57,017 bases of DNA from a virus. Location: the IMG/VR virus record IMGVR_UViG_3300047356_000921, positions 1 through 57,017 of that record. One strand, written 5' to 3'. Below the pieces are notes generated by a model, which was not told where the DNA came from, made no database searches, and worked only from the letters and a program-made list of their open reading frames with translations. Positions 1,313 to 56,363 of the stretch are shown in pieces (position 1 is the stretch's first letter; every line of letters starts with the position of its first letter). A program made the position numbers and the translations under genes.

Positions 1313-1399
1313 ATGGAACTATTAATAATGATTATAGTAATTGGTTTAACTATCCCGTTTGTAGGATTGCTTTGGATGTTCTATGATATGTTCAAGTAA
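1313..1399 (+). CDS. 28-residue single-span membrane peptide
   Basis: A small ORF with a strong Shine-Dalgarno (AAGGAGAAA) eight bases before ATG. The peptide is almost entirely hydrophobic (MELLIMIIVIGLTIPFVG...) and ends FYDMFK, so it is a single membrane helix with a short basic tail. It has its own promoter at 1265 and its last 8 bases overlap the end of the convergent HTH gene. The function is unknown. Confidence 0.55.
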   Translation: MELLIMIIVIGLTIPFVGLLWMFYDMFK

Positions 1400-1652
1400 C
1401 GCTAGGAAATCCGTACTTTTTCATTTTAGCAATTAAATTGGTTCTGCCTATCTTTAATAGTTTGGCAGCCTTAGTTTGATTGCCTTCAGATCTTGCAAGT
1501 GCATCACTAATTCTATCACGTTCAAGCATTTCAACTTCATCAGGTAATGCAGTTTCAAATTTAAGTTGCTCGTGATATTCGGCAAGTTCTCCGCATATGT
1601 TCCAAAGTGCTTCTTGTTCTTCTCGGTATTTTTGAGTTTCTAAATCATTCAT
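1392..1652 (-). CDS. Fis-type helix-turn-helix DNA-binding protein
   Basis: This is an 86-residue protein. Residues about 47-82 match the HTH_8/Fis motif, the C-terminal DNA-binding segment of NtrC-type activators: ISDALARSEGNQTKAAKLL then GRTNLIAKMKKYGF. The N-terminal half is helical and acidic and may dimerise. It is transcribed away from the csgF-csgG cassette, with a late-type octamer just upstream of its start (1657-1664, reverse strand) and a palindrome in the shared intergenic region. Autoregulation or control of the curli-like genes is a reasonable inference. Similar orphan Fis-like proteins occur in T4-like marine phages. Confidence 0.8.
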   Translation of the reverse strand: MNDLETQKYREEQEALWNICGELAEYHEQLKFETALPDEVEMLERDRISDALARSEGNQTKAAKLLKIGRTNLIAKMKKYGFPSVT

Positions 1653-1746: not shown

Positions 1747-1754
1747 AATAAATA
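1747..1754 (+). promoter_or_regulatory. Late promoter octamer AATAAATA for the csgF cassette
   Basis: The octamer lies 16 bp upstream of csgF, which also has a GGAGG Shine-Dalgarno. The flanking 12-mer TAAATACAAACG occurs twice, 27 bp apart (1722 and 1749), as if the promoter element had been duplicated. Confidence 0.6.
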
Positions 1755-1769
1755 CAAACGGAGGATCTT

Positions 1770-2228
1770 ATGAAAAGATTATTATTATTAGCGGCTATAT
1801 TTATTACCTTTGCTCCCAACATTGCGGCTAGCGAACTAAATTGGGGTTTCAAAAATCCTAGTTTTAGTGGACAAGGCTATTCATCGCACGTATTAAGTGC
1901 TGAACAGCTACAGTTTAATCGCAAGCAAGACATTGAAAAAGAGGCAGAAGCAGAGGCAAGAAGAATAGAACGCGAACTAGAAAACAGTACTCTTAATAAG
2001 TTTTTAAAGAACGTAGAGAGTAGAATATATGCACAAATATCCAAACAGATGGTTGATGCAATGTTTGCAGATTGTACAGATACGTGTTCTAACACAGGCA
2101 CAGCAGAGATTGAAGGTTCAACAATAACTTGGATAAAAGCAGACGGGATGATAACTTTGACTATTGTAGGTGAAGACGGTACAGTAACAGAGATAGCAAT
2201 ACCGGCAGATGGAGATTTTAGCTTTTAA
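1770..2228 (+). CDS. csgF: CsgF-like curli assembly protein
   Basis: In bacteria CsgF is secreted through CsgG, plugs the CsgG pore with its N-terminus and anchors the nucleator at the cell surface. This 152-residue protein has a Sec signal peptide (cleavage near NIAAS, residues 17-21). The mature N-terminus ELNWGFKNPSFSGQG carries the N-P-x-F-x-G signature by which E. coli CsgF binds CsgG. A charged helix follows (about 45-75), and the tail TVTEIAIPADGDFSF resembles CsgF C-termini. A Cys pair, CTDTC, is unusual. It is first in a late-promoted operon, with csgG starting one base after its stop. The assignment rests on motif and synteny. Confidence 0.87.
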   Translation: MKRLLLLAAIFITFAPNIAASELNWGFKNPSFSGQGYSSHVLSAEQLQFNRKQDIEKEAEAEARRIERELENSTLNKFLKNVESRIYAQISKQMVDAMFADCTDTCSNTGTAEIEGSTITWIKADGMITLTIVGEDGTVTEIAIPADGDFSF

Positions 2229-2229
2229 C

Positions 2230-3237
2230 ATGAAAGTACTCATTGCCCTATTATCACTAGCATTGCTAGGCGGGTGTGCTATGAATCCTAGTTTACAAAC
2301 GTTAAGAGATTCAGAGACGTCACCTGTAGTACAGGAATCACCAATCGCAGAACGATTAGAAGATGTACCTGTAATTGATGGACCCAAGATTACAATAGCT
2401 GTTTATAGTTTTAGTGATAAAACAGGACAGCGAAAACCAAGCGATGCTGTATCAAATTTGAGTTCAGCAGTAACACAAGGTGGTGAAGTTTGGGTAATCA
2501 AAGCTCTGCAAGATATAGGAAACGAAGGGTGGTTCGAAGTAGTTGAACGAGTAGGGATGGATAATCTCATTAAAGAAAGACAACTTATTCGACAAACACG
2601 TGAGCAGTACGAAGGCAAAGAAGCTACTAATTTACAGCCGTTGTTATTCGCAGGGCTTATTTTAGAGGGAGGCATAATTGGGTATGACAGCAATGTTGCT
2701 GTTGGAGGTGCAGGCGCAAGATGGCTAGGCGTTGGTTCTCAAACTCAATACAGAATAGATACCGTTACTATAGCATTAAGAATTGTTAGTGTAAGTACGG
2801 GGAAGGTGCTTTTAAGCATAGCAACTGAAAAAACGATTGCAAGCCATCAGTCCGGAGCGGACATATTTAAGTTCCTAGATATGGGGACTAGATTGTTAGA
2901 AACTGAGATAGGATTTTCAGTTAACGAACCGGTAAACTACGCTACAAGGGCTGCCATCGAGCAGGCAGTAGTTGAGTTAGTTTACGAAGGAGAAAAAAAG
3001 GGACTTTGGAAGTTTAAAGATAGAACATACACAGGAACATTACCTGCAACTAGACCATTAAAACTAAGCGAAGCATTAGAAAAATGGCCAGATCAAAGAT
3101 TGTATTGTGATGCAACTGATATGTGTTATCCGGCAACGGCTAAAGATAACAACCAAATGAGGGATAATAATGAAGTTAAAGATGTTAACATTGTCGTTGA
3201 TGACACTGCTAATGACGACTCCGGCTCTGGCGAATGA
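2230..3237 (+). CDS. csgG: CsgG-like outer-membrane curli secretion channel lipoprotein
   Basis: CsgG forms a nonameric outer-membrane pore for unfolded curlin subunits. The ATG at 2230 gives a lipoprotein signal with lipobox LGGC; a start at 2209 would add seven residues inside csgF and is less likely. Family motifs follow in order: IAVYSFSDKTGQ, a KP...NLSSAV loop, GWFEVVERVGMDNLIKERQ, LEGGIIGYDSN, GAGARWLGVGSQTQYRID, VSTGKVLLSIATEKTI, NEPVNYATRAAIEQAV and KGLWKF. Relative to E. coli, the constriction loop keeps Asn but has Leu for Phe56 and Ser/Asp at the Tyr51 position. About 60 extra C-terminal residues are acidic and overlap the next gene. Confidence 0.94.
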   Translation: MKVLIALLSLALLGGCAMNPSLQTLRDSETSPVVQESPIAERLEDVPVIDGPKITIAVYSFSDKTGQRKPSDAVSNLSSAVTQGGEVWVIKALQDIGNEGWFEVVERVGMDNLIKERQLIRQTREQYEGKEATNLQPLLFAGLILEGGIIGYDSNVAVGGAGARWLGVGSQTQYRIDTVTIALRIVSVSTGKVLLSIATEKTIASHQSGADIFKFLDMGTRLLETEIGFSVNEPVNYATRAAIEQAVVELVYEGEKKGLWKFKDRTYTGTLPATRPLKLSEALEKWPDQRLYCDATDMCYPATAKDNNQMRDNNEVKDVNIVVDDTANDDSGSGE

Positions 3238-3922
3238 TATCTATATTACACAAGTAGGTGATAATTTAGATTTAGACATTACACAAGACGGGTCTGATAA
3301 CCAGTTTGGTGATAGCACTACCGGTGTTTCACTAGCAGGTGACGGCATGGTGTTCTCAATTACACAAACGGGCGACAGCAATGATATTGCGGCAGTTATT
3401 AATGGTGATTCATATACTGGTACATGGGTATTTACTGGTAACACAAACGTAGTAGATTTTAAATGTGACAGTCTAGGTACCGCAGGTGCAGGCAACTGTG
3501 AATCTGTTGATCTTGATATTACTACTACAGGTGATGACAATACTTTTAAATTTTATATAGGCGAAAACTCAGACGCTGAAGGGGCTGATGTAACATTTAC
3601 TGTTACTGGCGACGACAACGTAGTTGATGCTGATATAGATGGTATAGATTCAACTGTAACCGTTGTAGTAAACAACAGTACTAGTTTACACTCTGGTGGT
3701 GCTACTAGTGCAACTGACAATACCTTAAGTTCAACTAATGCAGGTAACATTATTGATATAGACGTAGATGGTGCTGGTGATGCAAACGGACACTTGATAG
3801 ACTTAACAGTCACAGGTGGAGGTAATGTATTCACTATTACACAAAGCGGCACAGGCGATAACGTAATTGATGCAACTTTTACAACTGAAGGTAGTACAGT
3901 AGACATTACGCAGAGCGATTAG
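3170..3922 (+). CDS. Secreted curlin-repeat protein 1 (CsgA/CsgB-like)
   Basis: A 250-residue protein with a Sec signal peptide ending ALA, followed by mature ANDIYITQVGDNL. Curlin-type units (x-x-Q-x-G-D-x-N) recur, for example QVGDNLDLDITQDGSDN, SITQTGDSNDI, VTGDDNVVDADI and TQSGTGDNVID. The composition is Gly/Asp/Asn/Thr rich with alternating hydrophobics, as expected of a beta-helical amyloid. Its first 68 bases, coding only the signal peptide, overlap the end of csgG. It has one Cys pair. It is the probable substrate of the CsgG/CsgF pore; whether it is the major subunit or the nucleator cannot be told. Confidence 0.85.
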   Translation: MKLKMLTLSLMTLLMTTPALANDIYITQVGDNLDLDITQDGSDNQFGDSTTGVSLAGDGMVFSITQTGDSNDIAAVINGDSYTGTWVFTGNTNVVDFKCDSLGTAGAGNCESVDLDITTTGDDNTFKFYIGENSDAEGADVTFTVTGDDNVVDADIDGIDSTVTVVVNNSTSLHSGGATSATDNTLSSTNAGNIIDIDVDGAGDANGHLIDLTVTGGGNVFTITQSGTGDNVIDATFTTEGSTVDITQSD

Positions 3923-3923
3923 T

Positions 3924-5060
3924 ATGAAAATACTAATTCTCGTTTTATCCGTTTTTCTGGCTAGTTCAACGTTGGCGAATGCCCAAATAGGCACCGTAAC
4001 AGAACTTAACGGAGTTGGACAGATAAAACGTGACAAGGATATAATAGGCAACGACACAGGCACGTCTGTTGAACAAATGGACGAAGCAATTACAGAAAAG
4101 GGCAGGATGCGTATTGACTTTGTTGATGACACACGATTAGATGTTGTTGATCATAGCAGAGTAGTTATTGACGAATTTATATACGATCCTGCTACAGGCA
4201 CAGGGAAACTAGATATTAGAGCAAGCATTGGTGCTGTTCGATATGCTAGTGGACAGATTGCCAAAAACTCAAGACAGCAAGTAAGATTAAGAACTCCAAC
4301 AGCAACTATTTCTGTACGTGGCACAGACTTTGCTATGATTGTAAATGAAATTGGCGAAAGTTATGTAACATTACTACCTAGTTGCGAATATGACGGAATG
4401 GGCAACGAGCTCGAATGTGTAACCGGAGAAATTAAAGTAGAAAATGACGGCGGCTATGTTATTATGAATCAAGCATTTCAAATGACTCGTGTTAATAGTT
4501 ACAGCCAGCGTCCTAGTCCTCCTGTTATTGTTGACCTTACCGAACCACAGATTACAGGTATGCTTATAGTAAGACGCAAAGATCCTATTACTACAGCACA
4601 AGAAAAAGTATATCTAGAACAAAGAAAAACAGACATATTAAGTTTTGATTTTTTAAAGTTTGACGAATTAGAACAAGATGAACTTGTAGACAGCATCAAA
4701 GACATATGGGTAACAGAGTTAGATAGAGGTGCTGACTATTATCTACGTGAACAGTTGCTAAATATGATTGACGAGTTAAACAAGGCCTTATTAAAAAGTT
4801 TTCAAGATGAGCTACAAAAACAAAACGAAGAATTTTTTAAAGATAGAGCGTTAGGCTACGATGAAGATACAGGCATGTTTATAGATTTTGAAGATCCGAT
4901 GTGGCACATACGCAGACAGGATGTTAGTATAGAGAATACAATAGACATATATCTACACAACGAGTATGGATATAAACTTAATATAGAGCAGGGTGATGAA
5001 GCAGTATACGATTATATGCTTGGCGTTGGCAACAACAATATTAATATCAAACAACGCTAG
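3924..5060 (+). CDS. Secreted FecR-domain protein
   Basis: A 378-residue protein with a Sec signal peptide (cleavage near ANA/QIG, about residue 20). Residues about 22-200 form a FecR domain: early GxVxxLxGxxxIKR, GRMRIDFVDDTRLDVVDHS, IGAVRYASGQI, and the diagnostic RTPTATISVRGTDFAMIV. A charged helical region (about 220-320) follows, then a tail ending NNNINIKQR that echoes curlin strand units. There is no transmembrane segment, so unlike classical FecR it is not an inner-membrane anti-sigma sensor. Its place between two curlin genes suggests a periplasmic or surface scaffold for the fibre. It starts one base after curlin 1. Confidence 0.85.
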   Translation: MKILILVLSVFLASSTLANAQIGTVTELNGVGQIKRDKDIIGNDTGTSVEQMDEAITEKGRMRIDFVDDTRLDVVDHSRVVIDEFIYDPATGTGKLDIRASIGAVRYASGQIAKNSRQQVRLRTPTATISVRGTDFAMIVNEIGESYVTLLPSCEYDGMGNELECVTGEIKVENDGGYVIMNQAFQMTRVNSYSQRPSPPVIVDLTEPQITGMLIVRRKDPITTAQEKVYLEQRKTDILSFDFLKFDELEQDELVDSIKDIWVTELDRGADYYLREQLLNMIDELNKALLKSFQDELQKQNEEFFKDRALGYDEDTGMFIDFEDPMWHIRRQDVSIENTIDIYLHNEYGYKLNIEQGDEAVYDYMLGVGNNNINIKQR

Positions 5061-5709
5061 GGCAAATGACATTTATATCAACCAAGTAGGTGACAACTTG
5101 GAAATGCAAGTTATACAAGATGGCGATAACAACTATTTCCAGTATTGTACAAACGGCAATGATTCAAATTGTAAAGATGTAAACGGCAACGCACACGGTC
5201 GGGCAGACGGATTTACTAGTGACGATGCTATAGTGAATAGTGGTACAGTTGGCAACGATAATAAAGTTGTTGTAGCACACGCTACTGGAACAGGCAATAA
5301 TAACATCAATGAAACAAACATTGGAATCATAGGTGATCGCAACAAAGTACAAAACTTCTTTTCAAACCACAGTAGTGGAAGCCACAATTATAGTAATCAA
5401 GATTGGGGCGGTACTAAAGAAACTAATATTATGATTACAGGCGATGACAATTATGTAAAGGTTGACAGCGATAGTTATGGAGAAGTATATAGTGAGATTG
5501 AAGTAACTGGTGATGACAACAGTGTAATACTATGGCAAAGGTCAATGAATAATAGTGCTTCAATAGACGTAACCAATGCAGGCGGCCCTAGTACTGTTAC
5601 TGTTCATCAACTTGGTAGTAGTTACCAAGACACAGGATTAAACACATACGGTATTTCACAGACATGCGCTAATGCCAATGGTTGTTCAGTCACTGTGACG
5701 CAAAACTAA
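4996..5709 (+). CDS. Secreted curlin-repeat protein 2 (CsgA/CsgB-like)
   Basis: About 237 residues. ATG 4996 is preferred; a GTG at 4993 is also in frame. The signal peptide ends ARA, and mature ANDIYINQVGDNL nearly repeats the start of curlin protein 1. Units such as VIQDGDNNYF, VGNDNKVVV, IMITGDDNYVKV, IEVTGDDNSVIL and SVTVTQN recur to the C-terminus. It has two Cys pairs (CTNGNDSNC and a C-terminal pair). The signal peptide is coded within the 3' end of the FecR gene. With curlin 1 it probably forms the amyloid pair (main subunit and nucleator). Confidence 0.85.
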   Translation: MKQYTIICLALATTILISNNARANDIYINQVGDNLEMQVIQDGDNNYFQYCTNGNDSNCKDVNGNAHGRADGFTSDDAIVNSGTVGNDNKVVVAHATGTGNNNINETNIGIIGDRNKVQNFFSNHSSGSHNYSNQDWGGTKETNIMITGDDNYVKVDSDSYGEVYSEIEVTGDDNSVILWQRSMNNSASIDVTNAGGPSTVTVHQLGSSYQDTGLNTYGISQTCANANGCSVTVTQN

Positions 5710-5755: not shown

Positions 5756-6238
5756 GTGATAGATCCAATTACAGCGATTGCTGGAGCAACCGCGGCGTTC
5801 AACACAATAAAGCAAGGCTTTGCAGTTGGACGTGACATAGAATCAATGGCTGGCGATCTCGGAAGATGGATGGGAGCAGTCAGTGATATCAAAAAAGCAG
5901 AGGAACTCAATAAAAAACCTCCGCTATTCAAAAAACTTTTCCAAGCAGGTAGTGTTGAAGAAGAAGCAATGCAAATCTTTATGGCTAAAAAGAAAGCCCA
6001 AGATATGCGAGAAGAACTGAAACAGATTATTAGTTTTACTAGAGGTCCAAGTGCTTGGGAAGAACTTCTAAAAACAGAAGCAGACATCCGTAAGAAAAGA
6101 CAAAAAGCAATATACGATCAAGAAGAAAGACAAAGAGCATTTATTGAAGGAACTGCCATTGTTATAGGACTTTTGATATTAGTTGGAGGAGTATTAGCGT
6201 TATTTTGGTTTGTAGCAAAAGCGAGGGGCATGATATAG
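5756..6238 (+). CDS. Hypothetical protein with C-terminal membrane anchor
   Basis: A 160-residue protein starting at GTG (no ATG for 30 codons; AGTAGGG upstream). The N-terminus MIDPITAIAGATAAFNTIK is apolar and is followed by a long charged helical region (about 45-130). One transmembrane helix lies near 134-154, with a short basic tail. It could place a coiled coil on the cytoplasmic face of the inner membrane. Its late promoter and its place between the curlin genes and the cyclase suggest an accessory envelope role. No family recognised. Confidence 0.7.
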   Translation: MIDPITAIAGATAAFNTIKQGFAVGRDIESMAGDLGRWMGAVSDIKKAEELNKKPPLFKKLFQAGSVEEEAMQIFMAKKKAQDMREELKQIISFTRGPSAWEELLKTEADIRKKRQKAIYDQEERQRAFIEGTAIVIGLLILVGGVLALFWFVAKARGMI

Positions 6239-6241
6239 ATA

Positions 6242-6463
6242 ATGGTATACAAATACCAAGACTACATATACGTACACGATTATGGTCGCGGCAAACTTTA
6301 CAAAGGAGATCATTTACTTTTTAAAGGAAATGCTTGGAGCGGCATTATAGAGTTTCTCAATGCTACAAACAATGCTTCAGAAGTAAGAGAAATGTTCAAA
6401 GCTCAACTTGAACAGCGCGAAGTAGTAAAATTTAGACAACATCAAGGAAACATAGAAAAATGA
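6242..6463 (+). CDS. Hypothetical 73-residue protein
   Basis: Small soluble protein that starts with a Tyr-rich segment (YKYQDYIYVHDYGRGKLYKG) suggesting a beta hairpin and ends with a helix. It sits three bases after the previous gene and overlaps the next by ATGA. No family recognised. Confidence 0.65.
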   Translation: MVYKYQDYIYVHDYGRGKLYKGDHLLFKGNAWSGIIEFLNATNNASEVREMFKAQLEQREVVKFRQHQGNIEK

Positions 6464-6678
6464 TACACGCATTTATGCTAGTAGTACTATTAGGTGGTGA
6501 GATACAACCGAGCCCTATGTATTTTAGAAGTATTGATGTTTGTCAATATTATGCTAAACGTATACCGAGACAGTATGGTAACTACGGATCAAAGTATCTA
6601 ATACCGGCAGAGCATAGAATTACAGCATATTGTAAGCCTGTAAAGGTTCAAGATGGTCCATACATATACGATCACTAA
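6460..6678 (+). CDS. Hypothetical exported 72-residue protein
   Basis: The start overlaps the previous stop (ATGA). A short apolar N-terminus (MIHAFMLVVLLGG) could be a signal peptide. The rest has two Cys and many Tyr, in the pattern F-x-S-x-D-x-C-x-Y/F-x-A-(R/K) with a later C. The protein encoded at 19732 has the same layout, so the two may be distant paralogues. No function known. Confidence 0.65.
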   Translation: MIHAFMLVVLLGGEIQPSPMYFRSIDVCQYYAKRIPRQYGNYGSKYLIPAEHRITAYCKPVKVQDGPYIYDH

Positions 6679-6718: not shown

Positions 6719-8773
6719 ATGAAAAGATTACTAAGCCCTTGGTGGGCATTATTAACACTAGGGGTATTAGTATATGCGTTTGCAAATCCTAATAATTTTT
6801 TGCAAAGTATCAAACTAAATTACTTTGATCAACTGATTATTAATCAAGAACCAACGCAAAACAATATCTTTGTAGCAGAAATTGACGATGCTACTATAGA
6901 CAAGTTTGGACAATATCCTTTTCCAAGACACATATACTCAAACATTATTATTGACTTATATGACAAAGGAGCAGGGCTAGTTGTATGGAATATAATGATG
7001 CCCGAAGCAGACCGATTAGGTGGTGACGCTGATCTTGCAACAACAATGAGTCAGCTACCAGTTATACTAGCAAGTCGTCCCAGCGACAAAACAAAGAACG
7101 AACCTATAAATCCTGGGGCCGCAATATTACAAGCACAGTTTTTAGATCGCATATTACCATACGGCGGTATTATTGCAAATATTCCAGAACTTGAAAATAA
7201 TAGTGTTGGGGCAGGAATCGTTTCAACTGAGCCGGAGATAGATGGTGTTGTAAGACGCATGCCAACTGTCGCTGTCGTAGACGGTACACTATATCCTAGC
7301 CTAGCATTAGAAACTCTACGTGTTATTGCAGGCGATCCTAATTTCCAAATTAAACTTAATCAGTTTGGTATTGAAAAAATGCGTATACCAAACTTTGGTC
7401 CAATACCTACTGACTCAGAAGGGCGTGTATGGATAGACTGGAGTCAACGTTCTAATCGTATAAGCGTAACTGACTTATATAAAGAAGATGGTATAATGTC
7501 ATTTCAAGGTGCAATAGTAATAGTAGATGTTACAGCAACAGGTGTAGCAAACCCTGTTCCAACAGCAATAGGCGCACAATATGCAGGAACTACACAAGCG
7601 GCTGTACTAGGTACAATGTTTAATGGTACAAATATACAGCGTCCTGATTGGGCACCTGATGCAGAACTGTTAGCACTAGCTATAGGTGGGTTATTGCTTA
7701 TACTACTCAGCCGTTGGATGTGGTTAGGTCTTGTTACAACAGTTGTAATGATAGGCGGAGTTGTACCTTACAGCATATATGCGTACACAACAGAAAAGTT
7801 TCTTTTAGATGTTACAGCACCTGTTATAGTATTTGTAATAATTGCATTGCAAGTATATGGTATCAAATTTGTACGAGAATTCTTAGAAAAGCAAGCAATA
7901 AAGAAACAGTTCGCAGGATACGCATCACCTACTGTAGTACGCTTATTACAGGAAAATCCGGCACTTATTAAAGACGGTATGAAACGAGAAGTAAGCATAC
8001 TGTTCTCAGACTTGCGTGGCTTTACTCCACTAGGTGAATCATTTGGTGATGACGTAAAAGGACTTACCAAAATAATGAATGGCTATATGGATGCGATTAC
8101 ACAACCGGTGCTAGACGCAGACGGAATGATAATCAAGTATATTGGTGATGCTAGTATGCACATACACAACGCACCTATAGATGATCCTCATCATCCACGA
8201 ACCGCAGTGGAGACAGGATTATTAATGTTAAAAGCGGTGGAGAAGTTTAATGATAAAATTACAGCAGAAGGACGACCACCTGTCGGTATGGGTGCGGGAA
8301 TCAATACAGGACTGGGCTATCTTGGAGAAATGGGTAGCACCGCAAGACATTCGTACGATGTACTTGGAGACGCAGTCAGTACCGCCGCAAGAATCGAAAG
8401 CAAATGTAAAGAATACGGATGTCTACTCTTAGTTGGAGATGCAACTTATCAACAAACTAAAGACAACTTCTTTTACTTAAAGGTAGATGACTTGCAAGTA
8501 AAAGGTAAAAGTGTAGGATTAAGTATATACACTGTACTTGATGTTAAAGGAACACACGCCCAAAAGAAAAGTCAAGAAATGCACGAGCGTATGCACGATG
8601 CATATAGATCACAGAAGTTTGATGAAGCAATATATATTTGCGAAAGATTAAAACGTCATTTTGATGGCAAGATGGAAGGCTATTATGACATGTGGATTGA
8701 ACGTTGTGAGTTCCAAAAAACTCAAGATTTACCGTCTGATTGGAATGGTGTGTTTATTGCTACAAGTAAGTAG
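6719..8773 (+). CDS. CHASE2-domain membrane class III adenylate/guanylate cyclase
   Basis: A 684-residue protein with a full bacterial receptor-cyclase layout: transmembrane helix (about 8-22), extracytoplasmic CHASE2 sensor (about 45-290; EIDDATIDKFGQYPFPR, GAGLVVWNIMMPEAD), three helices (about 313-378), then a class III catalytic domain (about 422-607). Metal-binding D431 (FSDLRGFT) and D477 (KYIGD) are present. So are purine-specifying K473 and D547, which suggest ATP, and transition-state R558. The usual Asn of VNxAxR is Ser554 (AVSTAAR), so activity may be reduced or altered. Product is probably cAMP, but this is unproven. A late promoter precedes it. Phage-borne receptor cyclases are rare. 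Confidence 0.93.
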   Translation: MKRLLSPWWALLTLGVLVYAFANPNNFLQSIKLNYFDQLIINQEPTQNNIFVAEIDDATIDKFGQYPFPRHIYSNIIIDLYDKGAGLVVWNIMMPEADRLGGDADLATTMSQLPVILASRPSDKTKNEPINPGAAILQAQFLDRILPYGGIIANIPELENNSVGAGIVSTEPEIDGVVRRMPTVAVVDGTLYPSLALETLRVIAGDPNFQIKLNQFGIEKMRIPNFGPIPTDSEGRVWIDWSQRSNRISVTDLYKEDGIMSFQGAIVIVDVTATGVANPVPTAIGAQYAGTTQAAVLGTMFNGTNIQRPDWAPDAELLALAIGGLLLILLSRWMWLGLVTTVVMIGGVVPYSIYAYTTEKFLLDVTAPVIVFVIIALQVYGIKFVREFLEKQAIKKQFAGYASPTVVRLLQENPALIKDGMKREVSILFSDLRGFTPLGESFGDDVKGLTKIMNGYMDAITQPVLDADGMIIKYIGDASMHIHNAPIDDPHHPRTAVETGLLMLKAVEKFNDKITAEGRPPVGMGAGINTGLGYLGEMGSTARHSYDVLGDAVSTAARIESKCKEYGCLLLVGDATYQQTKDNFFYLKVDDLQVKGKSVGLSIYTVLDVKGTHAQKKSQEMHERMHDAYRSQKFDEAIYICERLKRHFDGKMEGYYDMWIERCEFQKTQDLPSDWNGVFIATSK

Positions 8774-8924
8774 TAGCAAGACACACAGTGGTTGCTAATA
8801 AACTTAGTATCAACGCACCAATACCAATACCACACACCCAATCACTATTGGCCCGTACCATTTCGCTAATAGTTTCCAAGGCACTGTTGACCGGTGTGGG
8901 TAATTGTAAATTACTTTTTTCCAC
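8760..8924 (-). CDS. Small membrane protein, 54 residues
   Basis: Start taken at GTG 8924, where GGGG lies upstream; an ATG at 8954 would add 10 residues inside the upstream gene. A polar helix is followed by one C-terminal transmembrane segment (VCGIGIGALILSLLATTVC). It is last of three leftward genes and overlaps the end of the cyclase by 14 bases. It could be part of a holin-type set. No family recognised. Confidence 0.5.
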   Translation of the reverse strand: MEKSNLQLPTPVNSALETISEMVRANSDWVCGIGIGALILSLLATTVCLATTYL

Positions 8925-9276
8925 TTTTATTCCCCGTAGAGTTGAAGGTGTCATTATCTAAATCAGTGTATTTTTGAACTATTTCTTCTAACTCTTTTCG
9001 TTTCTCTTTGTTAAGTTTTGCTTCATTTTCTAAAACCATACTTAACTTGGTATTCATTCTTATCATGTCATTGTCTAACATACGCACACGATCAACAAGT
9101 TTGATTAATGTACCCATTGTTTCTCCTATAACAGGATCAATTACAGTTGTTACCCATTGCCAGATAAAGTAGATAAAATAACCCATGCCTATAGCGGCAA
9201 TAATAGGAAATCCATAGTCACTTACCATTGAACCAATTGTGGTTCCTTGTTCTATAACTACTGTTGGATTTTCCAT
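8911..9276 (-). CDS. Membrane-anchored coiled-coil protein (holin-like candidate)
   Basis: A 121-residue protein. One hydrophobic stretch (about 22-45, GFPIIAAIGMGYFIYFIWQW) is followed by a long charged helix (about 50-110) with heptad-like spacing. The upstream gene product shares its layout (GFPI, then a membrane helix, then a D(N/R)-rich coiled coil), so they look like tandem paralogues. Size and topology resemble single-span holin-like proteins such as BhlA/UviB, but a structural role is possible. The start follows directly after the stop of the upstream gene. Confidence 0.65.
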   Translation of the reverse strand: MENPTVVIEQGTTIGSMVSDYGFPIIAAIGMGYFIYFIWQWVTTVIDPVIGETMGTLIKLVDRVRMLDNDMIRMNTKLSMVLENEAKLNKEKRKELEEIVQKYTDLDNDTFNSTGNKSGKK

Positions 9277-9561
9277 CTAGTCTCTCCTAGCATCGTCTTT
9301 ACCTTCATTGGCAGCGATTCTATCTACATTAGGTTTAATGTCTAAAGCATGGCTTAGGAGAGCATCAATTTTTACTAAATCATTATTCATAGTCTGTACT
9401 CGGTTGTCGAGTTGACCTATAATGTTTTTTAATGTTGTTACTGAGTCGGTTACACCTGCTAGGATAAATTTTAGGGTTAGAAAAACAAACCCACCTGCGG
9501 CTAGTGCTCCTGCTATAGGAAAACCGACTTCCCCAACAAGTGTTAGAAAGTCCATATTCAA
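9277..9561 (-). CDS. Membrane-anchored coiled-coil protein, paralogue of next gene
   Basis: A 94-residue protein, MNMDFLTLVGEVGFPIAGAL..., with one membrane helix (about 13-37) and a helical C-terminus (TLKNIIGQLDNRVQTMNND). It is first of three leftward genes, with late octamer CATAAATA on the reverse strand at 9590-9597. The divergent neighbour encodes a cell-wall peptidase-like lipoprotein, a context that fits a role in lysis. The holin role is inference. Confidence 0.65.
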   Translation of the reverse strand: MNMDFLTLVGEVGFPIAGALAAGGFVFLTLKFILAGVTDSVTTLKNIIGQLDNRVQTMNNDLVKIDALLSHALDIKPNVDRIAANEGKDDARRD

Positions 9562-9589: not shown

Positions 9590-9597
9590 TATTTATG
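9590..9597 (-). promoter_or_regulatory. Late promoter octamer CATAAATA, leftward
   Basis: Reverse-strand octamer 29 bp before the start of the leftward membrane-protein group. Confidence 0.5.
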
Positions 9598-9600
9598 TTA

Positions 9601-9608
9601 GATAAATA
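9601..9608 (+). promoter_or_regulatory. Late-type octamer GATAAATA, rightward
   Basis: Lies four bases before ATG 9613 and back-to-back with the leftward octamer at 9590. If used, the mRNA for the lipoprotein gene would be nearly leaderless. Confidence 0.35.
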
Positions 9609-9612
9609 TTTT

Positions 9613-10191
9613 ATGAAGCACACTTATACATTTTTTTTCACAATATTATTCACTGGATGCAGTACATATCTACTTTCCGATCCTACTACAGAAGCCGCAA
9701 CAATAGAAGTTAATAAAAATAATCCTTTAATACAAGCAAATGACTATTTAGGTTATCATGAAGATACGCACCGAGCTGAAATAGAAGAATTTACAGGAGT
9801 TGATCCTGTTTATACTCAATGGTGTGCGGCATTTGTAAATGCCGTACTAGAAGAAAGTAACTTAGCAAGTCTAAACACTCCCGGTGCTAGTCATTGTCAA
9901 AGTTGCAAGGAAAATTTACCACACCCTTATCCTTTGACTGCACGAAGTTTTTTGCACTACGGTATTTCTATATCTAAAGAAGATGTAATGCCCGGCGACC
10001 TAGTTATATTTCCTAGAGGTAATGAAGTATGGAAGGGACATGTTGGATTTTATTTACGTACAGTAGAAGTAAACGGAGTTGAATACTATTGGATACTAGG
10101 TGGAAATCAAAGTAACAAAGTTAGTGTAGTATTATATAGATCTTCAAAAGCCTTAGGTATTAGACGCCCAGTAAAATTAATTAATGGTTGA
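9613..10191 (+). CDS. Lipoprotein NlpC/CHAP-like cysteine amidase/peptidase (TIGR02594-like)
   Basis: Probably a peptidoglycan-cleaving enzyme anchored to a membrane. ATG 9613 is chosen because it gives a lipoprotein signal (FFFTILFTGC); an in-frame ATG at 9595 adds six residues. Neither has a clear Shine-Dalgarno. The catalytic layout of the TIGR02594 family is visible: Cys in QWCAAFVNAV, the PGDLVIFPRGN strand, His in GHVGFY, and LGGNQSNKVSV near the C-terminus. It stands opposite the holin-like genes. As a lipoprotein it may act from the outer membrane, unlike soluble endolysins. The main alternative is a virion-associated or host-wall remodelling enzyme. Confidence 0.8.
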   Translation: MKHTYTFFFTILFTGCSTYLLSDPTTEAATIEVNKNNPLIQANDYLGYHEDTHRAEIEEFTGVDPVYTQWCAAFVNAVLEESNLASLNTPGASHCQSCKENLPHPYPLTARSFLHYGISISKEDVMPGDLVIFPRGNEVWKGHVGFYLRTVEVNGVEYYWILGGNQSNKVSVVLYRSSKALGIRRPVKLING

Positions 10192-20650: not shown

Positions 20651-21370
20651 TTGAAGGTATATTACACTAACGATGAAGCAGTATTGCAAGACAGTGTCAA
20701 TGTCAAGCAAGATATGTCTATGGCATATCTACCGCCAGAGTTGTTAGGTAAACATATACCAGAAAAGATGAAACTAAGTGACTATGTACAATGTCCAGCG
20801 TTTACTGGCACTATTAGAAATACATATGCACTTAGATTTCCTTTTGATTTTACACTTAAGATAAACACACAAACTTGGAATATAGAATCAAATCGACCTG
20901 AGTTTGTAAAAACATATCTTACTCCACCTTACGATAATAGCGGAGTGTTACAGTTACACTTAGGAACATTATTTTTTGCAGACAAGTCGTGTGTAGCAGA
21001 GCAAGTACATCCTTATCTACACAGTAATAGCTTAACACAAAACGCAAACGTATTACAAGGTCAATTTGATATAGGAAAATGGTTTAGACCAATAAATCTT
21101 GCATTTCGTATCAACTCTACAGATAAAGAAGTTGTTATTGATTTTAATCGAGGTGATGTGTACAGTTATTTAAGACTTCATACTAACGAAAAAGTAAACA
21201 TGTATGAGTTTGAAAACACACCAGATATAAACACAATAATGGCTCGTTGCGTAAGTTTTAAAAATGCAAAAACACAACCTCTAAAACAAATGTATGATAG
21301 TTTCTTAAGAAAAAAGTACAATAAGAAATTATTAAAATTAATCCAACAAAATAAAATAGGAGAAATATAA
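20651..21370 (+). CDS. Hypothetical protein, 239 residues
   Basis: TTG start at 20651, two bases after the previous stop. Beta-rich core ([34 protein letters not shown]) and a basic C-terminal helix ([15 protein letters not shown]). Similar proteins are found in T4-like cyanophages, as far as can be recalled; no function is known. The stop is followed at once by clpP. Confidence 0.7.
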
Positions 21371-21987
21371 TGCCTTTAATTCCAATGGTAGTAGAACAGG
21401 AGAGTCGAGGCGAACGCTCTTGGGACATTTATAGTCGTCTAATGAAGGACCGCATTATTATGCTTAATGGTCCAGTTGAAGATGTAATGGCTAATGTAGT
21501 CGTTGCACAAATGCTTTATTTGGAGAGTGAAAATCCTGACAAGGATATTAACTTATATATTAATTCACCTGGTGGGCAAGTAACAGCCGGACTTGCGATC
21601 TATGATACAATGCAATACATCAAATGTGATGTTAAAACTATTGTAATGGGTCAAGCATGTTCAATGGGTTCGTTCCTAGCACAAGCAGGTACAGCAGGTA
21701 AGCGTATTGTACTGCCCGAAAGTCGTACAATGATTCATAGAGTAAGTTCAGGCACACCAGGTACAAGTGGTAGTGTACATATTCAAGAACTACAAATTGA
21801 AGACATCAATCGACATTATGAAGAGTCACAAAAAATTAACAAGCGTCTTACAGAATTGTATGTCAAACACAATACCGCAGGTAAGTCCTATGAAGAACTG
21901 TTTGAAACAATGAAGTTTGATACTTTCTTGACAGCGCAAGAAGCAGTAGAAAATGGACTTGCTGATAAAGTAGTAGAGAAAAGATAA
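21370..21987 (+). CDS. clpP: ClpP-like serine protease
   Basis: 205 residues, the usual length of ClpP, the proteolytic ring that works with ClpX/ClpA. The catalytic triad is S98 ([14 protein letters not shown]), H123 (RTMIHRV) and D184 ([18 protein letters not shown]). The [18 protein letters not shown] segment is typical. GGAG precedes the start. No Clp ATPase gene is nearby, so it may join host ClpX or assemble with host ClpP. Phage ClpP also occurs as a head-maturation protease, but capsid genes are absent around it and the sequence is close to housekeeping ClpP. Confidence 0.92.
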
Positions 21988-22522: not shown

Positions 22523-22612
22523 GGAAGATTGGCTGAGTGGTTTAAAGCGGCGGATTACTAATCCGTTGTACGTGAGAGCGTACCGTGGGTTCGAATCCTA
22601 CATCTTCCGCCA
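22523..22612 (+). tRNA. tRNA-Ser, anticodon ACU
   Basis: Class II tRNA with a 7-bp acceptor (GGAAGAT/ATCTTCC), D-arm, long variable arm, T-arm and coded CCA. The anticodon stem is GCGGA/TCCGT and the loop TTACTAA puts ACT at positions 34-36. Bacterial Ser tRNAs for AGY codons normally have GCU, so A34 is unusual. Confidence 0.92.
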
Positions 22613-22616
22613 AGAA

Positions 22617-22690
22617 GCGGGTGTTGTGTAATGGTAAGACCTTAGCCTTCCAAGCTAATGATAGGAGTTCGATTCTCCTCACCCGCTCCA
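22617..22690 (+). tRNA. tRNA-Gly, anticodon UCC
   Basis: Acceptor GCGGGTG/CACCCGC, anticodon stem TTAGC/GCTAA with loop CTTCCAA, T-loop TTCGATT, coded CCA. Four bases after tRNA-Ser, so cotranscribed. Confidence 0.95.
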
Positions 22691-22708
22691 AAAGAAAGGA
22701 GTCGCATT

Positions 22709-22858
22709 ATGCGACAAACAAAAGAACAACGTGAAGCAATTATTGCAGGTGCAGTAGCTCAGATAAAAGCAAACGTTGAAAAACTAAATAGTGGACCTAT
22801 GGAACATACGTTAAAACGTAGAGCCGCACTTGAAAAGAAAGCGAATAAACGCAGATAA
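22709..22858 (+). CDS. Basic 49-residue protein
   Basis: ATG 22709 has AAAGGAG upstream. The start codon lies in a perfect 7-bp inverted repeat (22701-22715, GTCGCAT-T-ATGCGAC). The protein is short, helical and basic (MRQTKEQREAIIAGAV then KRRAALEKKANKRR), so it could bind RNA. It lies between tRNA-Gly and tRNA-Thr and is probably on the same transcript. Confidence 0.6.
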   Translation: MRQTKEQREAIIAGAVAQIKANVEKLNSGPMEHTLKRRAALEKKANKRR

Positions 22859-22863
22859 AAAAT

Positions 22864-23040
22864 ATGAATAATCCTGTTGTAAAAGTTGTTTATAGGCATT
22901 GGAAGACTGGTAAAGAATTAGAAGTTACTGGTAAAATAATTCCAATAAACGAGAACAGTGATCGAATAGTAGTATTGTGTGAAAATGGTGTGTACGAAGA
23001 TATCATACGTGATACTATAATAAGTCAAACGCCGGCATAG
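22864..23040 (+). CDS. Hypothetical 58-residue protein overlapping tRNA-Thr
   Basis: ATG AAT AAT start six bases after the previous gene. Beta-rich (PVVKVVYRHWKTGKE, DRIVVLCENG). Its last ten bases, including the stop TAG, are the first ten bases of tRNA-Thr, so mRNA and tRNA share sequence. Function unknown. Confidence 0.6.
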   Translation: MNNPVVKVVYRHWKTGKELEVTGKIIPINENSDRIVVLCENGVYEDIIRDTIISQTPA

Positions 23041-23106
23041 CTCAGTTGGTAGAGCAACTGATTTGTAATCAGTAGGTCCCGAGTTCGAATCTTGGTGCCG
23101 GCACCA
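23031..23106 (+). tRNA. tRNA-Thr, anticodon UGU
   Basis: Acceptor GCCGGCA/TGCCGGC, anticodon stem ACTGA/TCAGT with loop TTTGTAA, coded CCA. Reads ACA, a frequent Thr codon in these genes. Confidence 0.97.
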
Positions 23107-23113
23107 TATTATT

Positions 23114-23198
23114 GCGCCTGTGGTGAAATTGGTAGACACGCTAGATTTAGGTTCTAGTGCTTTACGGCGTGGGGGTTCAAGTCCCTCCAGGCGCACCA
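23114..23198 (+). tRNA. tRNA-Leu, anticodon UAG
   Basis: Class II, acceptor GCGCCTG/CAGGCGC, anticodon stem CTAGA/TCTAG with loop TTTAGGT, long variable arm, coded CCA. Confidence 0.96.
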
Positions 23199-23220
23199 AA
23201 CAAAAAGAAAGGACCCTAAG

Positions 23221-23526
23221 ATGAGAGAATGGGTATTCAATTGTTGGAATGTAGTAATGGATCATAATATGAATCCGCTGAGTAACATTCCAGACTTCAG
23301 TACACGACATATGATTATGCAAGTCCTTGCATGGATGTGGTGTATTGTATTTGCTATTATTGTAGGTAGTATGTGGGCAGGAGTGTTTAGTATGATGCTA
23401 CATACATTATTACTAGGTGCTATCGCAATCACAGTAGCAACATTCGAAACAGCTAAACGCAATCCAAAAGCATTCCGTAGAGACAACGGTATTAATTCAC
23501 GTGGATACGGTGGTGAACACGAATGA
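23221..23526 (+). CDS. Membrane protein, 101 residues
   Basis: GAAAGGA precedes ATG. Two transmembrane helices (about 34-52 and 55-75; VLAWMWCIVFAIIVGSMWAG, MLHTLLLGAIAITVA) and a basic soluble tail. Overlaps the next gene by ATGA. No family recognised. Confidence 0.65.
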   Translation: MREWVFNCWNVVMDHNMNPLSNIPDFSTRHMIMQVLAWMWCIVFAIIVGSMWAGVFSMMLHTLLLGAIAITVATFETAKRNPKAFRRDNGINSRGYGGEHE

Positions 23527-23681
23527 GTGAACAAACTAATTATTGTACCACAAAAGGATTGTTACCAGCATTCCTTATCATTGCTTTCTTTATTGTAGGC
23601 ATTCCGTTATTAATGGTAGACAATGCAAAATATTGTAAGCAGAGTATTATTCCTTGTTATCCTTGGGTAACACCGGAGTAG
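23523..23681 (+). CDS. Small membrane protein, 52 residues
   Basis: ATGA overlap. One hydrophobic helix (about 13-32, LLPAFLIIAFFIVGIPLLMV) flanked by Cys-containing ends (NYC, KYC, PCY). Probably partners the protein before it. Confidence 0.6.
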   Translation: MSEQTNYCTTKGLLPAFLIIAFFIVGIPLLMVDNAKYCKQSIIPCYPWVTPE

Positions 23682-23697
23682 GCTAAATACTTTTACA

Positions 23698-23871
23698 ATG
23701 TTTAGTGCAGTCAAAGAAATAATTTGGCATTTAACGTGCAAGGGTTGTAGCAATTGGTTTACATATGCTACAATGGAAGATAAGTATTGCATTGAACGAA
23801 CAACATTTCATTGTCCACACTGCGGGAAAAAAGGCAGAGTAGATAAAAAAGATGTTGACATAACAGAATAA
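23698..23871 (+). CDS. Zinc-ribbon protein, 57 residues
   Basis: Two zinc knuckles, CKGC and CPHC, 25 residues apart: LTCKGCSNWFTYAT ... HCPHCGKKGRV. A single compact ribbon typical of small nucleic-acid- or protein-binding factors. The -35 of the next promoter lies in its 3' end. No family recognised. Confidence 0.65.
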   Translation: MFSAVKEIIWHLTCKGCSNWFTYATMEDKYCIERTTFHCPHCGKKGRVDKKDVDITE

Positions 23872-23888
23872 AGAGTGTATTATAAATA
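23855..23888 (+). promoter_or_regulatory. Fused early and late promoter
   Basis: TTGACA (23855-23860), 17 bp, TATTAT (23878-23883), overlapped by a perfect T4 late octamer TATAAATA (23881-23888). Drives the leader RNA at 23890 and possibly the Trp-Gln-Cys tRNA group. Confidence 0.7.
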
Positions 23889-23914
23889 CATAATAAGAAA
23901 TAAGGAATACTAAC

Positions 23915-23983
23915 GTGTTAAGAACTGTACAACAATCGTCATTACAGAATTGGTGCCCAATACATGGAAGGGGTATGTCTTAA
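23915..23983 (+). CDS. Candidate 22-residue leader peptide
   Basis: GTG start with AAGGA eight bases upstream. The peptide VLRTVQQSSLQNWCPIHGRG then MS contains Gln (three codons), Trp and Cys. The three tRNA genes directly downstream of the terminator are Trp, Gln and Cys. It could be a stalling sensor for those charged tRNAs, or chance. Length and lack of homologues keep confidence low. Confidence 0.35.
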   Translation: MLRTVQQSSLQNWCPIHGRGMS

Positions 23984-24012
23984 CGCGACTTTATAAAAAA
24001 GTTATTTTAAGC

Positions 24013-24047
24013 AAGCCCCTAGTGTTAATTCATTAGGGGCTTTTTTT
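24013..24047 (+). terminator. Rho-independent terminator
   Basis: AAGCCCCTAGTG pairs with CATTAGGGGCTT around TTAATT (one mismatch), followed by a run of seven T. tRNA-Trp starts at the next base, so the T-run abuts the mature tRNA 5' end. Confidence 0.88.
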
Positions 24048-24121
24048 GTCGGTGAAGTGTTATGGTAGCACGGCGGTCTCCAAAACCGCAAGCGGGGGTT
24101 CGACTCCCTCCACCGATGCCA
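24048..24121 (+). tRNA. tRNA-Trp, anticodon CCA
   Basis: Acceptor GTCGGTG/CACCGAT (first pair G-U), anticodon stem GCGGT/ACCGC with loop CTCCAAA, coded CCA. Confidence 0.95.
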
Positions 24122-24126
24122 ATTAC

Positions 24127-24201
24127 TGGGGAATAGTCTAGAGGTAGGACGACTGTTTTTGATACAGTAGATCGTAGGTTCGAATCCTACTTCCCCAGCC
24201 A
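24127..24201 (+). tRNA. tRNA-Gln, anticodon UUG
   Basis: Acceptor TGGGGAA/TTCCCCA (U1-A72 as usual for Gln), anticodon stem ACTGT/ACAGT with loop TTTTGAT, coded CCA. Confidence 0.95.
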
Positions 24202-24202
24202 A

Positions 24203-24276
24203 CACTAAGTGGCAGAGTGGCTATGCAACGGACTGCAACTCCGTGTACGCCGGTTCGATTCCGGCCTTAGTGTCCA
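24203..24276 (+). tRNA. tRNA-Cys, anticodon GCA
   Basis: Acceptor CACTAAG/CTTAGTG, discriminator U as in Cys tRNAs, anticodon stem ACGGA/TCCGT with loop CTGCAAC, coded CCA. Confidence 0.94.
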
Positions 24277-38687: not shown

Positions 38688-41600
38688 ATGGCAAAACAAG
38701 AAATTGATATTGGTGTAGAGGGTAATGACGGAACTGGTGATAGTATACGTGAATCCTTTCGTAAGGTAAACGAAAACTTTACAGAAGTATACGCAGTATT
38801 TGGCGAAGGCGGACAAATTAGTTTTTCTACGCTTAGTGATACACCGGACAACTTAATACCAAACACAATACCATTAGTAAATGACGGGGCAACTGGTTTT
38901 GACCTAACTACATTAGCAAGTGATTCAGCAATTGATGATGATTTTGTTGATAGTGTTCTAATAAGCTATACTCCTAGTAGAGATAAGATTATACTTAGAA
39001 CAACATTTAAGCAACTGTCGCAAGATCTTACACCTACACTAGGCGGGCCATTAGATGCTAGAGGTAACGAGCCTGACAACATTACTGGTATTGCTCTAGG
39101 ACCAAGTGGTGTTACACAAGATGCTGTTAACGCATTTAATCTTGCACACGATACAACTATTACAGTTGATGACCTTGTTATTAACAAAGGTTATGCTGAT
39201 GCAAGATACATTGCAGGCGAACTGCCAATTCGTGTTGAAGACGAGCCAGCAGATGCATCTGAATATACACTTACTATTAGTTCTTATTCTGCAGGTAACA
39301 TTGTTATTGACTCGCATGGATTTGATAGAACAATTAACGGTGTACCTTATACATTCAATGCTGAAGATACAGTACCAACAGCATTAACAAATAACACAGT
39401 TTACTATCTACGATATGCTAACCCAAACCAATTAAGTTTACACGCAACTAAAGAACAAGCAAAAGTTCAGAGTCAAGCAGATGCTGAAGCTAACAAAATT
39501 TATGTTACAGGTGCTATTGCTCTTGACGATATACACACTTTAGTTGATACAGGATATGATGCTTCACTACAAGGATTCTTCTTATCAAACGAAGCAATGC
39601 CACGTAAGAGTATTGTAAGACGTCAAGGCGACGAAATGACTGGGCCTCTTATCTTGCATGATAGCCCCGGGGAACTTTCAGGCTTAACTAGTTCAAAAGG
39701 TGAACTACAGGCCGCAACAAAATACTACGTTGATAATACATCTTATTCTGCAAAAGATAACTTGTTTGTAAGCACACAAGGTGACGATGCAATGGCTGGC
39801 GTGCCTGCAGGTAAAGAAGGTACATCAAACAACTACGCTTATCGTACAATTAATAAAGCGGCAGAACGTGCAGAAGAAATGATTCGTGCATCAGAAGCTG
39901 AGCCAGGACCTTATTTCCAAACTATTACAGTAGATGACGGAGCAAGCAATGCGTTTGTAACACAAGGTGATTTGAACAGCGCATTACCGCAGTTTACTCT
40001 TGCTAAAGACAAGATTGATGCTAACAGAGAATTTGTTATACGTGAAATTACAGCGTATCTAAAATTTACATATCCTGATTTTGACTACAATATTCAATTG
40101 TGTGAAAGAGATCTAGGGTTAATAATGGACAGTATTGCTTTTGATATTGCAAAAAGTTTTAGCGATTCGTTAACTAATGCTAACTCATTAACACGAAAAG
40201 CGGCTGAACGCTATTATGCTAGTTCGTCGGGTCGTATTGCAATTACTAGACAGGCAGTTGAAACTATTGATTCAATTGAAACTGCTAAAGACATTATAGC
40301 CGCTGTACTTTTAGATAGACCATTAAATCAAGTACCAATTAGTGATATAACACAAGACAACATTGCTAAAGTTACTACATCAAGTGGACACGGATTAATA
40401 GATAAAAATATTGTTAAAATTACAACCGTTGCTGGTATGACCGATGTAAACGACAACTTCTATTATGTAAAAGTTGTTGATGCAACATCATTTGAATTAT
40501 TTACAAACGAAGAGTTAACTTTACCAGTTGATAGTAGTGCATTTGGTGTATATGCGTCAGGCGGCATTATTGGTCAAGTTTATCAAACAGATGAAAAACA
40601 AGTATTTGACGGATCACAAGCAACTGCACCTGCAAGAAATGGTGTTGCTGATAAATTTGATCTTGTTGTTGAAATTATTCAAGACGGTCTTGATGCAGGG
40701 CAGGTTACTAACTTTGGTAAAACTTATTATATCTATGTTGATCCAGGTGCCGGCAACTCAACAGACCAAGCAAAATTAGGCAACAAAGACGTTATACCAG
40801 GTAAAGTAATTGTTGGTAAAATATCTGGTGCACAAGGTAGAATTGTAAACTACTATACTAAAACAGATAATGCAAACCCGGATGTTTCTGGTAATAATGA
40901 TGTTATTGAAGTACACTTATTAAAACCAAAAGATTTTATTGCTAACGAAGATGTAGAATACGGAAACTTTGTTAATAAAAAACAAATTACTATTTTTGTT
41001 GAATCAGGTCAGTACGAAGAAGACTATCCAATTAAAGTTAGTGCAAACGTGTCAATTAAAGGTGACGAGTTTAGACGTGTAATTGTAAAACCTAAAAATA
41101 GAATATCACAATCTAAATGGGCCAATACGTACATGTATCGTGACAGGTACTTTGATGGTATTACTGTTGCAGAAAAAGGTGCTAGATTCTACAACCAAAC
41201 TGGAGAGTTCCAAGGACACTTTGGTCGTCACTATCTAAGTGATCCTGAAAAAGAACAGAACATTGGCCTACCTGTAACTAATGCTGGCGGATACAATTCT
41301 GCGGCAGCAATTCTATTAGAAAACAAAAAGTTCATACAAGAAGAAATTGTTAATTTTGTAAACAACAATATTGACGATATTTTATATGACAAGACACAAT
41401 TCCAAGCTGACTTAGAAAATATTTTAACAGGTATCACTTATGATATAGTACTAGGTACTACGTATCATTCAACATTGCAAGGACTAAAGTTTCAAAGAAA
41501 CAAAAGTATCTACAAAGATACAAAATTAAAAAATATTTGGGCGGCGGCACTAACAGAAGCAAAATCAATTGTAGCTACATACGCAAACGTAGGAACACTT

Positions 41601-56286: not shown

Positions 56287-56363
56287 GCGGCTATAGCTCA
56301 GCTGGATAGAGCGTAGGTTTGCGGAACCTAAGGTCAGGAGTTCGAATCTCTTTAGCCGCGCCA
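56287..56363 (+). tRNA. tRNA-Arg, anticodon GCG
   Basis: Acceptor GCGGCTA/TAGCCGC, D-arm GCTCAGCTGGATAGAGC, anticodon stem TAGGT/ACCTA with loop TTGCGGA, T-stem AGGAG/CTCTT, coded CCA. Bacteria normally read CGU/CGC with ACG (inosine); GCG is uncommon. Confidence 0.95.

Follow-up and report, generated by a model that had tools for sequence, protein, structure and literature searches.

What does a marine phage gain from a curli export system that comes with substrates of its own? The question is raised by positions 1770-5709 of IMG/VR virus record IMGVR_UViG_3300047356_000921, whose 57,017 nucleotides were all analysed and are hereafter called the window. There, csgF, csgG and the genes for two curlin-repeat proteins form one colinear operon, with the gene for an exported FecR-domain protein between the two curlins. 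With moderate confidence, these genes are interpreted here as part of a late phage module that would give the infected cell an adhesive coat or fibre made of curlin and monitor the export. Adhesin export by the module is well supported by the sequences, while sensing by a loop of FecR protein and cyclase is a step we infer.

Curli export genes in the window

The components by which curli (type VIII) secretion is recognised are present in the sequence, namely a CsgG pore lipoprotein, CsgF and a curlin-repeat substrate with a Sec signal. The gene csgF (1770..2228, + strand) encodes a predicted secreted curli chaperone or pore partner, which matches Pfam CsgF at 4.4e-14 and contains N-P-S-F-S-G; a phmmer search of it against the PDB gave no match. 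The predicted outer-membrane lipoprotein pore encoded by csgG (2230..3237, +) matches Pfam CsgG at 1.3e-51 and the solved E. coli CsgG at 4.3e-52 over residues 3-266, and has an additional C-terminal extension of about 70 residues. A csgG-like gene was also considered in an entry titled Salmonella phage S.Kent 1-2-1, which at 1,499 unannotated bases is too short to judge.

Curlin-1 (3170..3922, +; 250 residues, Sec-exported) matches Curlin_rpt at 3.3e-4, with 21.0 bits against a cut-off of 20.7, as do 31 of 49 homologues with the same family, and its AlphaFold2 model is all-beta (predicted local distance difference test score 84, predicted template modelling score 0.79). Curlin-2 (4996..5709, +; 237 residues, Sec-exported) stays below the cut-off when searched alone (0.026), yet 29 of its 37 homologues reach E<=0.01, and a profile of its family recognises 8c50, a curlin-repeat protein of solved structure, at 1.3e-15. 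Near its C-terminus lies an invariant pair of cysteines. Two of the 37 homologues also contain a PA14 domain, a domain that occurs in carbohydrate-binding adhesins. The long curlin-2 of phage HTVC008M (L001:10638-11963) is likely one of these two.

The original prediction had proposed a five-gene cassette with export signals, to be checked by profile searches and by a look for the same gene order in other phages. Pfam matches, colinearity and export signals bear it out. CsgF and CsgG were matched, curlin-1 scored above the Curlin_rpt cut-off and curlin-2 was recognised at family level; CsgF, the FecR protein and both curlins have Sec-type signals, and CsgG has a lipoprotein signal with the lipobox LGGC. 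The order csgF-csgG-curlin-FecR-(curlin)-cyclase recurs across about 130 viral loci, which were retrieved from IMG/VR via CsgG or FecR. Of the genes listed as missing, csgE has no match in the whole 57-kb window, and no search was made for csgC and csgD. The CsgE gate is also reported missing from pelagiphages and alphaproteobacterial modules (PMC9599517), and hence does not define such modules.

The genes are closely packed, with curlin-1 starting 68 nucleotides within csgG and curlin-2 starting 65 nucleotides within the FecR gene, so the translation of the curlins is probably coupled to that of the genes upstream. The module genes are under purifying selection where examined: the ratio of nonsynonymous to synonymous substitution (dN/dS) is 0.06-0.18 for csgF, csgG, curlin-1, FecR and cyclase, and 0.33 for curlin-2, the fastest-evolving of them and the most variable in length. 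The module also extends past 5709, with further genes at 5756-6678, the cyclase at 6719-8773, and the membrane-protein genes MemA and MemB at 8911-9561 on the − strand.

A late-promoter-like ATAAATA (1748..1754, +) lies 22 nucleotides upstream of csgF and forms, with CTAAATA at 1721, a 12-base direct repeat (TAAATACAAACG). The pattern [AT]TAAATA occurs at most 45 nucleotides upstream of 9 of the 68 window genes, compared with 0.8 at random positions and 1.9 in shuffled upstream DNA; the nine include 48185, 50653 and 53515, in the tail-gene region. Among homologous clusters, such a site precedes csgF in 21 of 58 (5 expected), csgG in none of 49, and FecR in none. Given this enrichment before window genes, including those of the tail region, and before csgF homologues, a late promoter ahead of csgF is likely; the earlier claim of one holds for the sequence motif. 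Divergent from csgF, a small open reading frame (ORF; 1392..1652, −), conserved in 11 loci and with a C-terminus that by eye resembles a Fis-like helix-turn-helix, is a possible regulator.

Curli genes in phages of SAR11 and OM43 were already known from 2020-2022. In 2020, csgF and csgG were described in phage together with hypothetical genes, and capture of siblings was proposed (PMC7029224). In 2022, csgF, csgG, csgA/B, FecR, a second csgA/B and a cyclase were reported in Pelagibacter myo- and podophages, with expression of the module in metatranscriptomes (PMC9599517), and csgGF was described in methylophage Melnitz, with a lysis-timing pore proposed (PMC9004378). Since these three papers published it, the finding itself is not new: phage curli export with its own substrates, as originally predicted, is supported by sequence, by synteny across >100 loci and by purifying selection, but is not the first of its kind (PMC9599517 is earlier).

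The window follows the gene order of the pelagiphage type VIII secretion module (PMC9599517; HTVC008M, KC465899), that is csgF, csgG, curlin, FecR, second curlin and cyclase. It differs from HTVC008M in that no T4-like capsid and portal genes were found and in three additional ORFs before the cyclase, and it differs from pelagiphage modules with MemA/MemB before csgF in having them convergent after the cyclase. The Melnitz operon (MZ577098) has the same six genes in the same order; although the Melnitz paper presents the operon without cargo, as a pinholin or secretin (PMC9004378), the deposited record annotates a FecR-domain protein and a pair of proteins with curlin repeats. With the curli of E. 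coli and Alphaproteobacteria the window shares CsgG, CsgF and curlin repeats, whereas no CsgE was found in the window and the bacterial csg loci checked are without FecR and CHASE2-cyclase.

The FecR tail, the cyclase and the membrane pair

The FecR-domain protein (3924..5060, +) matches FecR at 1.2e-7, as do all 42 homologues with this family, and its structure model matches the cell-surface signalling domain of PupR at 7.7e-5. It was published as an iron regulator in the pelagiphage module (PMC9599517). A periplasmic FecR domain, as in FecR/PupR-type iron regulators, is present; however, Pfam finds no N-terminal anti-sigma domain, and there is a Sec signal instead of an internal transmembrane window, with no other transmembrane segment.

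The protein ends in a curlin-like tail (4959..5057, +), GYKLNIEQ ... NNNINIKQR, modelled as confident beta strands. The tail consensus is GYxIxxxQxG...NxIxIxQxx-stop, with Q356, I373, I375 and Q377 conserved at >=90%. The tail profile aligns co-terminally with both curlins, scoring 30.0 against the end of curlin-2 and 25.2 against that of curlin-1, compared with a mean of 9.8 and a maximum of 14.5 for column shuffles and 12-13 for reversed profiles. Of 43 csg-linked clusters, 41 have the terminal motif, compared with 2 of 76 cellular FecRs and none of 9 phage FecRs linked to a type I secretion system (T1SS). As the sequences are related to each other, a Fisher test on these counts gives no true probability; the 76 "cellular" ones also include the FecR of contig L147, which proved to be phage. 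A distant csg-linked FecR of 739 residues retains the tail after some 500 residues of differing sequence. By this curlin-like C-terminal unit, FecR is probably linked to the cargo.

The cyclase gene (6719..8773, +) encodes a predicted CHASE2 sensor (2.2e-32) joined to a class III adenylate cyclase (9e-16), with the metal-binding Asp pair, the substrate Lys/Asp and the Arg kept. Beyond the csg-bearing contigs, a CHASE2-cyclase lies no more than about 4 kb from FecR in 17 of 71 loci, and none of the 71 has csg neighbours. Within 10 kb of five alphaproteobacterial csg operons there is no FecR and no cyclase, and such operons were therefore rejected as the source of the two. Since the pair occurs without csg and the bacterial csg operons lack the pair, the phage module, as judged from gene content, unites a curli exporter with a pair of FecR and CHASE2 proteins. 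An exported FecR that adjoins a CHASE2 sensor is also found in the biofilm-linked Burkholderia BiofilmReg operon (PMC5192318), which differs in its histidine kinase output, its LysM domain and its lack of curli genes.

Three ORFs precede the cyclase. The first, orf6 (5756..6238, +), encodes a membrane protein conserved in some modules, a homologue of which (45% identity) adjoins cyclase and MemA/MemB in L147; orf7 (6242..6463, +) and orf8 (6460..6678, +) are small and travel with it and with each other. After the cyclase, MemA (8911..9276, −) encodes a membrane protein of 121 residues with one hydrophobic segment, and MemB (9277..9561, −) a paralogue of about 92 residues.

Of the roughly 130 loci, all 111 for which flanking DNA was available have MemA or MemB, before csgF in 95 and convergent after the cyclase in 16; among the loci listed, the 16 without them are contigs that end short of the expected place. 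When loci were selected by MemA instead, csg genes were present in 55 of 79 and FecR and/or cyclase in 17 more, and most of the 7 with neither end just past MemA. Among 50,697 INPHARED phage records, MemA/MemB occur only in HTVC008M and Melnitz phages, all of them csg carriers, which rejects a general holin pair. This constant company with the csg set is new here.

Pfam matches of MemA/MemB are weak and mixed, for instance to YvrJ. The podophage operon is described as always having one or two histidine kinase genes ahead of it (PMC9599517). These genes are probably MemA/MemB, for which 25 members of about 83-126 residues were compared with Pfam; the 25 families listed (of 36 matched at E<=1) include no kinase family, HisKA and HATPase among those absent. 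A bacterial origin of the MemA/MemB and cyclase cassette (MED657 bin, L147) was discarded, as the contigs proved to be phage, with structural genes in common with the window; in 385 alphaproteobacterial genomes, the only one with MemA/MemB is the MED657 bin itself. Among the MemA relatives (L320-L398) are some on viral contigs as long as 357 and 383 kb (e.g., L358 and L392), and the family therefore reaches jumbo-sized phages.

Apparent exporter swap and probable carrier lineage

In L147, a phage contig within a Rickettsiales bin, identified as phage by the structural genes it has in common with the window, the order is FecR-domain protein (1317 residues), TolC, membrane protein, HlyD, cyclase, MemB, MemA and orf6. 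A search of viral contigs with the L147 cyclase found T1SS genes in 34 loci and the full set of FecR, exporter and cyclase in nine; exact peptide patterns for phage HlyD had found none in viral contigs, and the same genes were reached via the cyclase. In the two loci checked, the outer-membrane protein matches OEP at 6e-49 and the fusion protein HlyD_3 at 1e-17. Three T1SS-linked FecR-domain proteins of about 1200-1700 residues have cadherin-like domains or, in one of the three, RTX repeats, and none of the three has a Sec signal by eye. As the nearby DNA of these loci showed no ABC ATPase signature and the 250-residue membrane gene has no family match, this phage T1SS may be reduced.

Gene content thus indicates that related phages retain FecR, cyclase and the membrane pair but combine them with a putative type I secretion system and a giant FecR-domain adhesin. 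No report of such a phage T1SS was found in the open-access literature, which is weak evidence of novelty. T1SS genes with a giant FecR-domain adhesin beside CHASE2-cyclase and MemA/MemB were seen in L246, L258, L268, L281, L284, L286 and L147, on marine viral contigs of up to 148 kb. On two contigs (L242:3851-10533 and L305:1157-7839), a cyclase of the T1SS type precedes a divergent csg module that has a second cyclase of its own. We tentatively propose, at a little under even chances, that in marine phages exported FecR, CHASE2-cyclase and MemA/MemB constitute a constant sensing cassette plugged into interchangeable type VIII or type I adhesin exporters, in which FecR would always be physically in the cargo, as a tail or by fusion, and would report export to the cyclase.

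The window phage itself is probably a further, third carrier lineage, as T4-like head genes were found neither in the window nor in its longest relatives. No match to the T4 capsid protein gp23 or portal protein gp20 was found in the window or in related contigs of 134 and 141 kb, which may be incomplete; both were found in HTVC008M, Melnitz and one other contig. An identity as an ordinary T4-like pelagimyophage (Kyanoviridae) was accordingly rejected as unlikely. The window's ClpP-type protease (21370-21987) has 67.5% identity to its counterpart in Pseudomonas jumbo phage PA5oct and is shared with seven related records at 59-90% identity, besides a near-identical copy.

Elsewhere in the window, an ORF of 3154 residues (38688-48152), preceded by smaller late-promoter-linked genes, probably encodes a giant structural or tail protein; seven tRNAs cluster at 22523-24276, and one tRNA-Arg lies near the end (56287-56363). 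The csg-bearing viral contig of 134 kb (IMGVR_UViG_3300027859_000890; L227, also L064) encodes two full-length proteins like cytochrome c oxidase subunits II (L227:13989-14726; Pfam COX2 1.2e-45) and I (L227:15234-16889; Pfam COX1 9e-159), as well as GAPDH, DnaJ and UvdE.

Proposed function and rival explanations

Under the adhesin-export reading, the curlins would leave through CsgG-CsgF and polymerise outside the cell. The FecR tail would join or cap the curlin polymer, in a CsgB-like or gate-like role that replaces CsgE, and FecR, so bound, would sense cargo at the pore. With or without MemA/MemB, it would then act on the periplasmic CHASE2 and set cytoplasmic cyclic AMP. The benefit is most likely adhesion, which could hold neighbouring cells or progeny, or mask the surface against other phages.

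The csg exporter, two cargos, tailed FecR, CHASE2-cyclase and MemA/MemB are kept together in unrelated phages. Since FecR, cyclase and MemA/MemB remain constant while exporter and cargo vary, a surface-adhesin programme is a better fit than either an import channel or a lysis pore. Outer-membrane perforation, one of the functions originally listed, is less favoured than surface adhesion because related phages have a T1SS in place of the curli exporter and because two homologues of curlin-2 contain a PA14 domain. Aggregation, also listed, may occur, but infection with Melnitz caused no clumping in culture (PMC9004378).

Several results weigh against the adhesin-export reading, the lack of clumping among them. 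Shuffles in blocks of four reach a maximum of 25.6, close to the tail profile's score for curlin-1, and the tail-to-curlin match is moderate (probability 59-68% for curlin-2 and 7-24% for curlin-1). Pfam Curlin_rpt matched 2 of 42 FecRs, weakly, and in the cyclase the catalytic, transition-state Asn is replaced by Ser. A PDB search with the tail profile retrieved no curlin, and foldseek gave no significant match for the curlin-1 model; both results are uninformative. Finally, the fibre, the change in cyclic AMP and the contact between FecR and CHASE2 are steps that we infer.

Among the alternatives, superinfection exclusion is a variant that uses the same machinery, with a curlin coat that masks receptors and aggregation as a by-product. 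The fast evolution and variable length of curlin-2 are what an arms race would impose on a surface layer, yet a late-type promoter would make exclusion late; the idea is considered unlikely.

The lysis-timing pore proposed for Melnitz (PMC9004378), in which CsgG-CsgF would act as pinholin or secretin and depolarise or perforate the envelope late, could draw on the late-promoter-like site ahead of csgF and on the two small membrane proteins adjoining the module, with a lysozyme-like gene (9595-10191) beside them. However, CsgG belongs in the outer, not the inner, membrane; curlin-1, a cargo protein, is conserved and evolves under purifying selection; MemA/MemB are confined to csg-bearing phages in INPHARED, unlike a general holin; and the same cassette serves a T1SS with a giant adhesin. 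This reading is improbable, and both it and iron regulation are weaker than adhesin export. Equally improbable is a fibre by which curlins would decorate released particles or tie progeny to debris instead of living cells: tail-region genes do share the late-type promoter, and the FecR tail could tether fibres, but the Sec signals, the lipoprotein signal and the exporter in the outer membrane direct the proteins to the envelope, away from cytoplasmic assembly. Import of iron chelates or cofactors through the pore, with FecR as iron regulator (PMC9599517), is very improbable, since despite its FecR domain the protein has a Sec signal, no other transmembrane segment, no anti-sigma domain found by Pfam and a curlin-like tail, and an import pore needs no conserved curlins.

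The adhesin-export reading would tie an abundant, unexplained phage module to surface adhesion and a sensor loop. Curli genes make up about 7.8% of a podophage genome (PMC9599517), and the FecR tail, MemA/MemB and the exporter swap lead to testable predictions on this curli coding load in phages of tiny-genome ocean bacteria.

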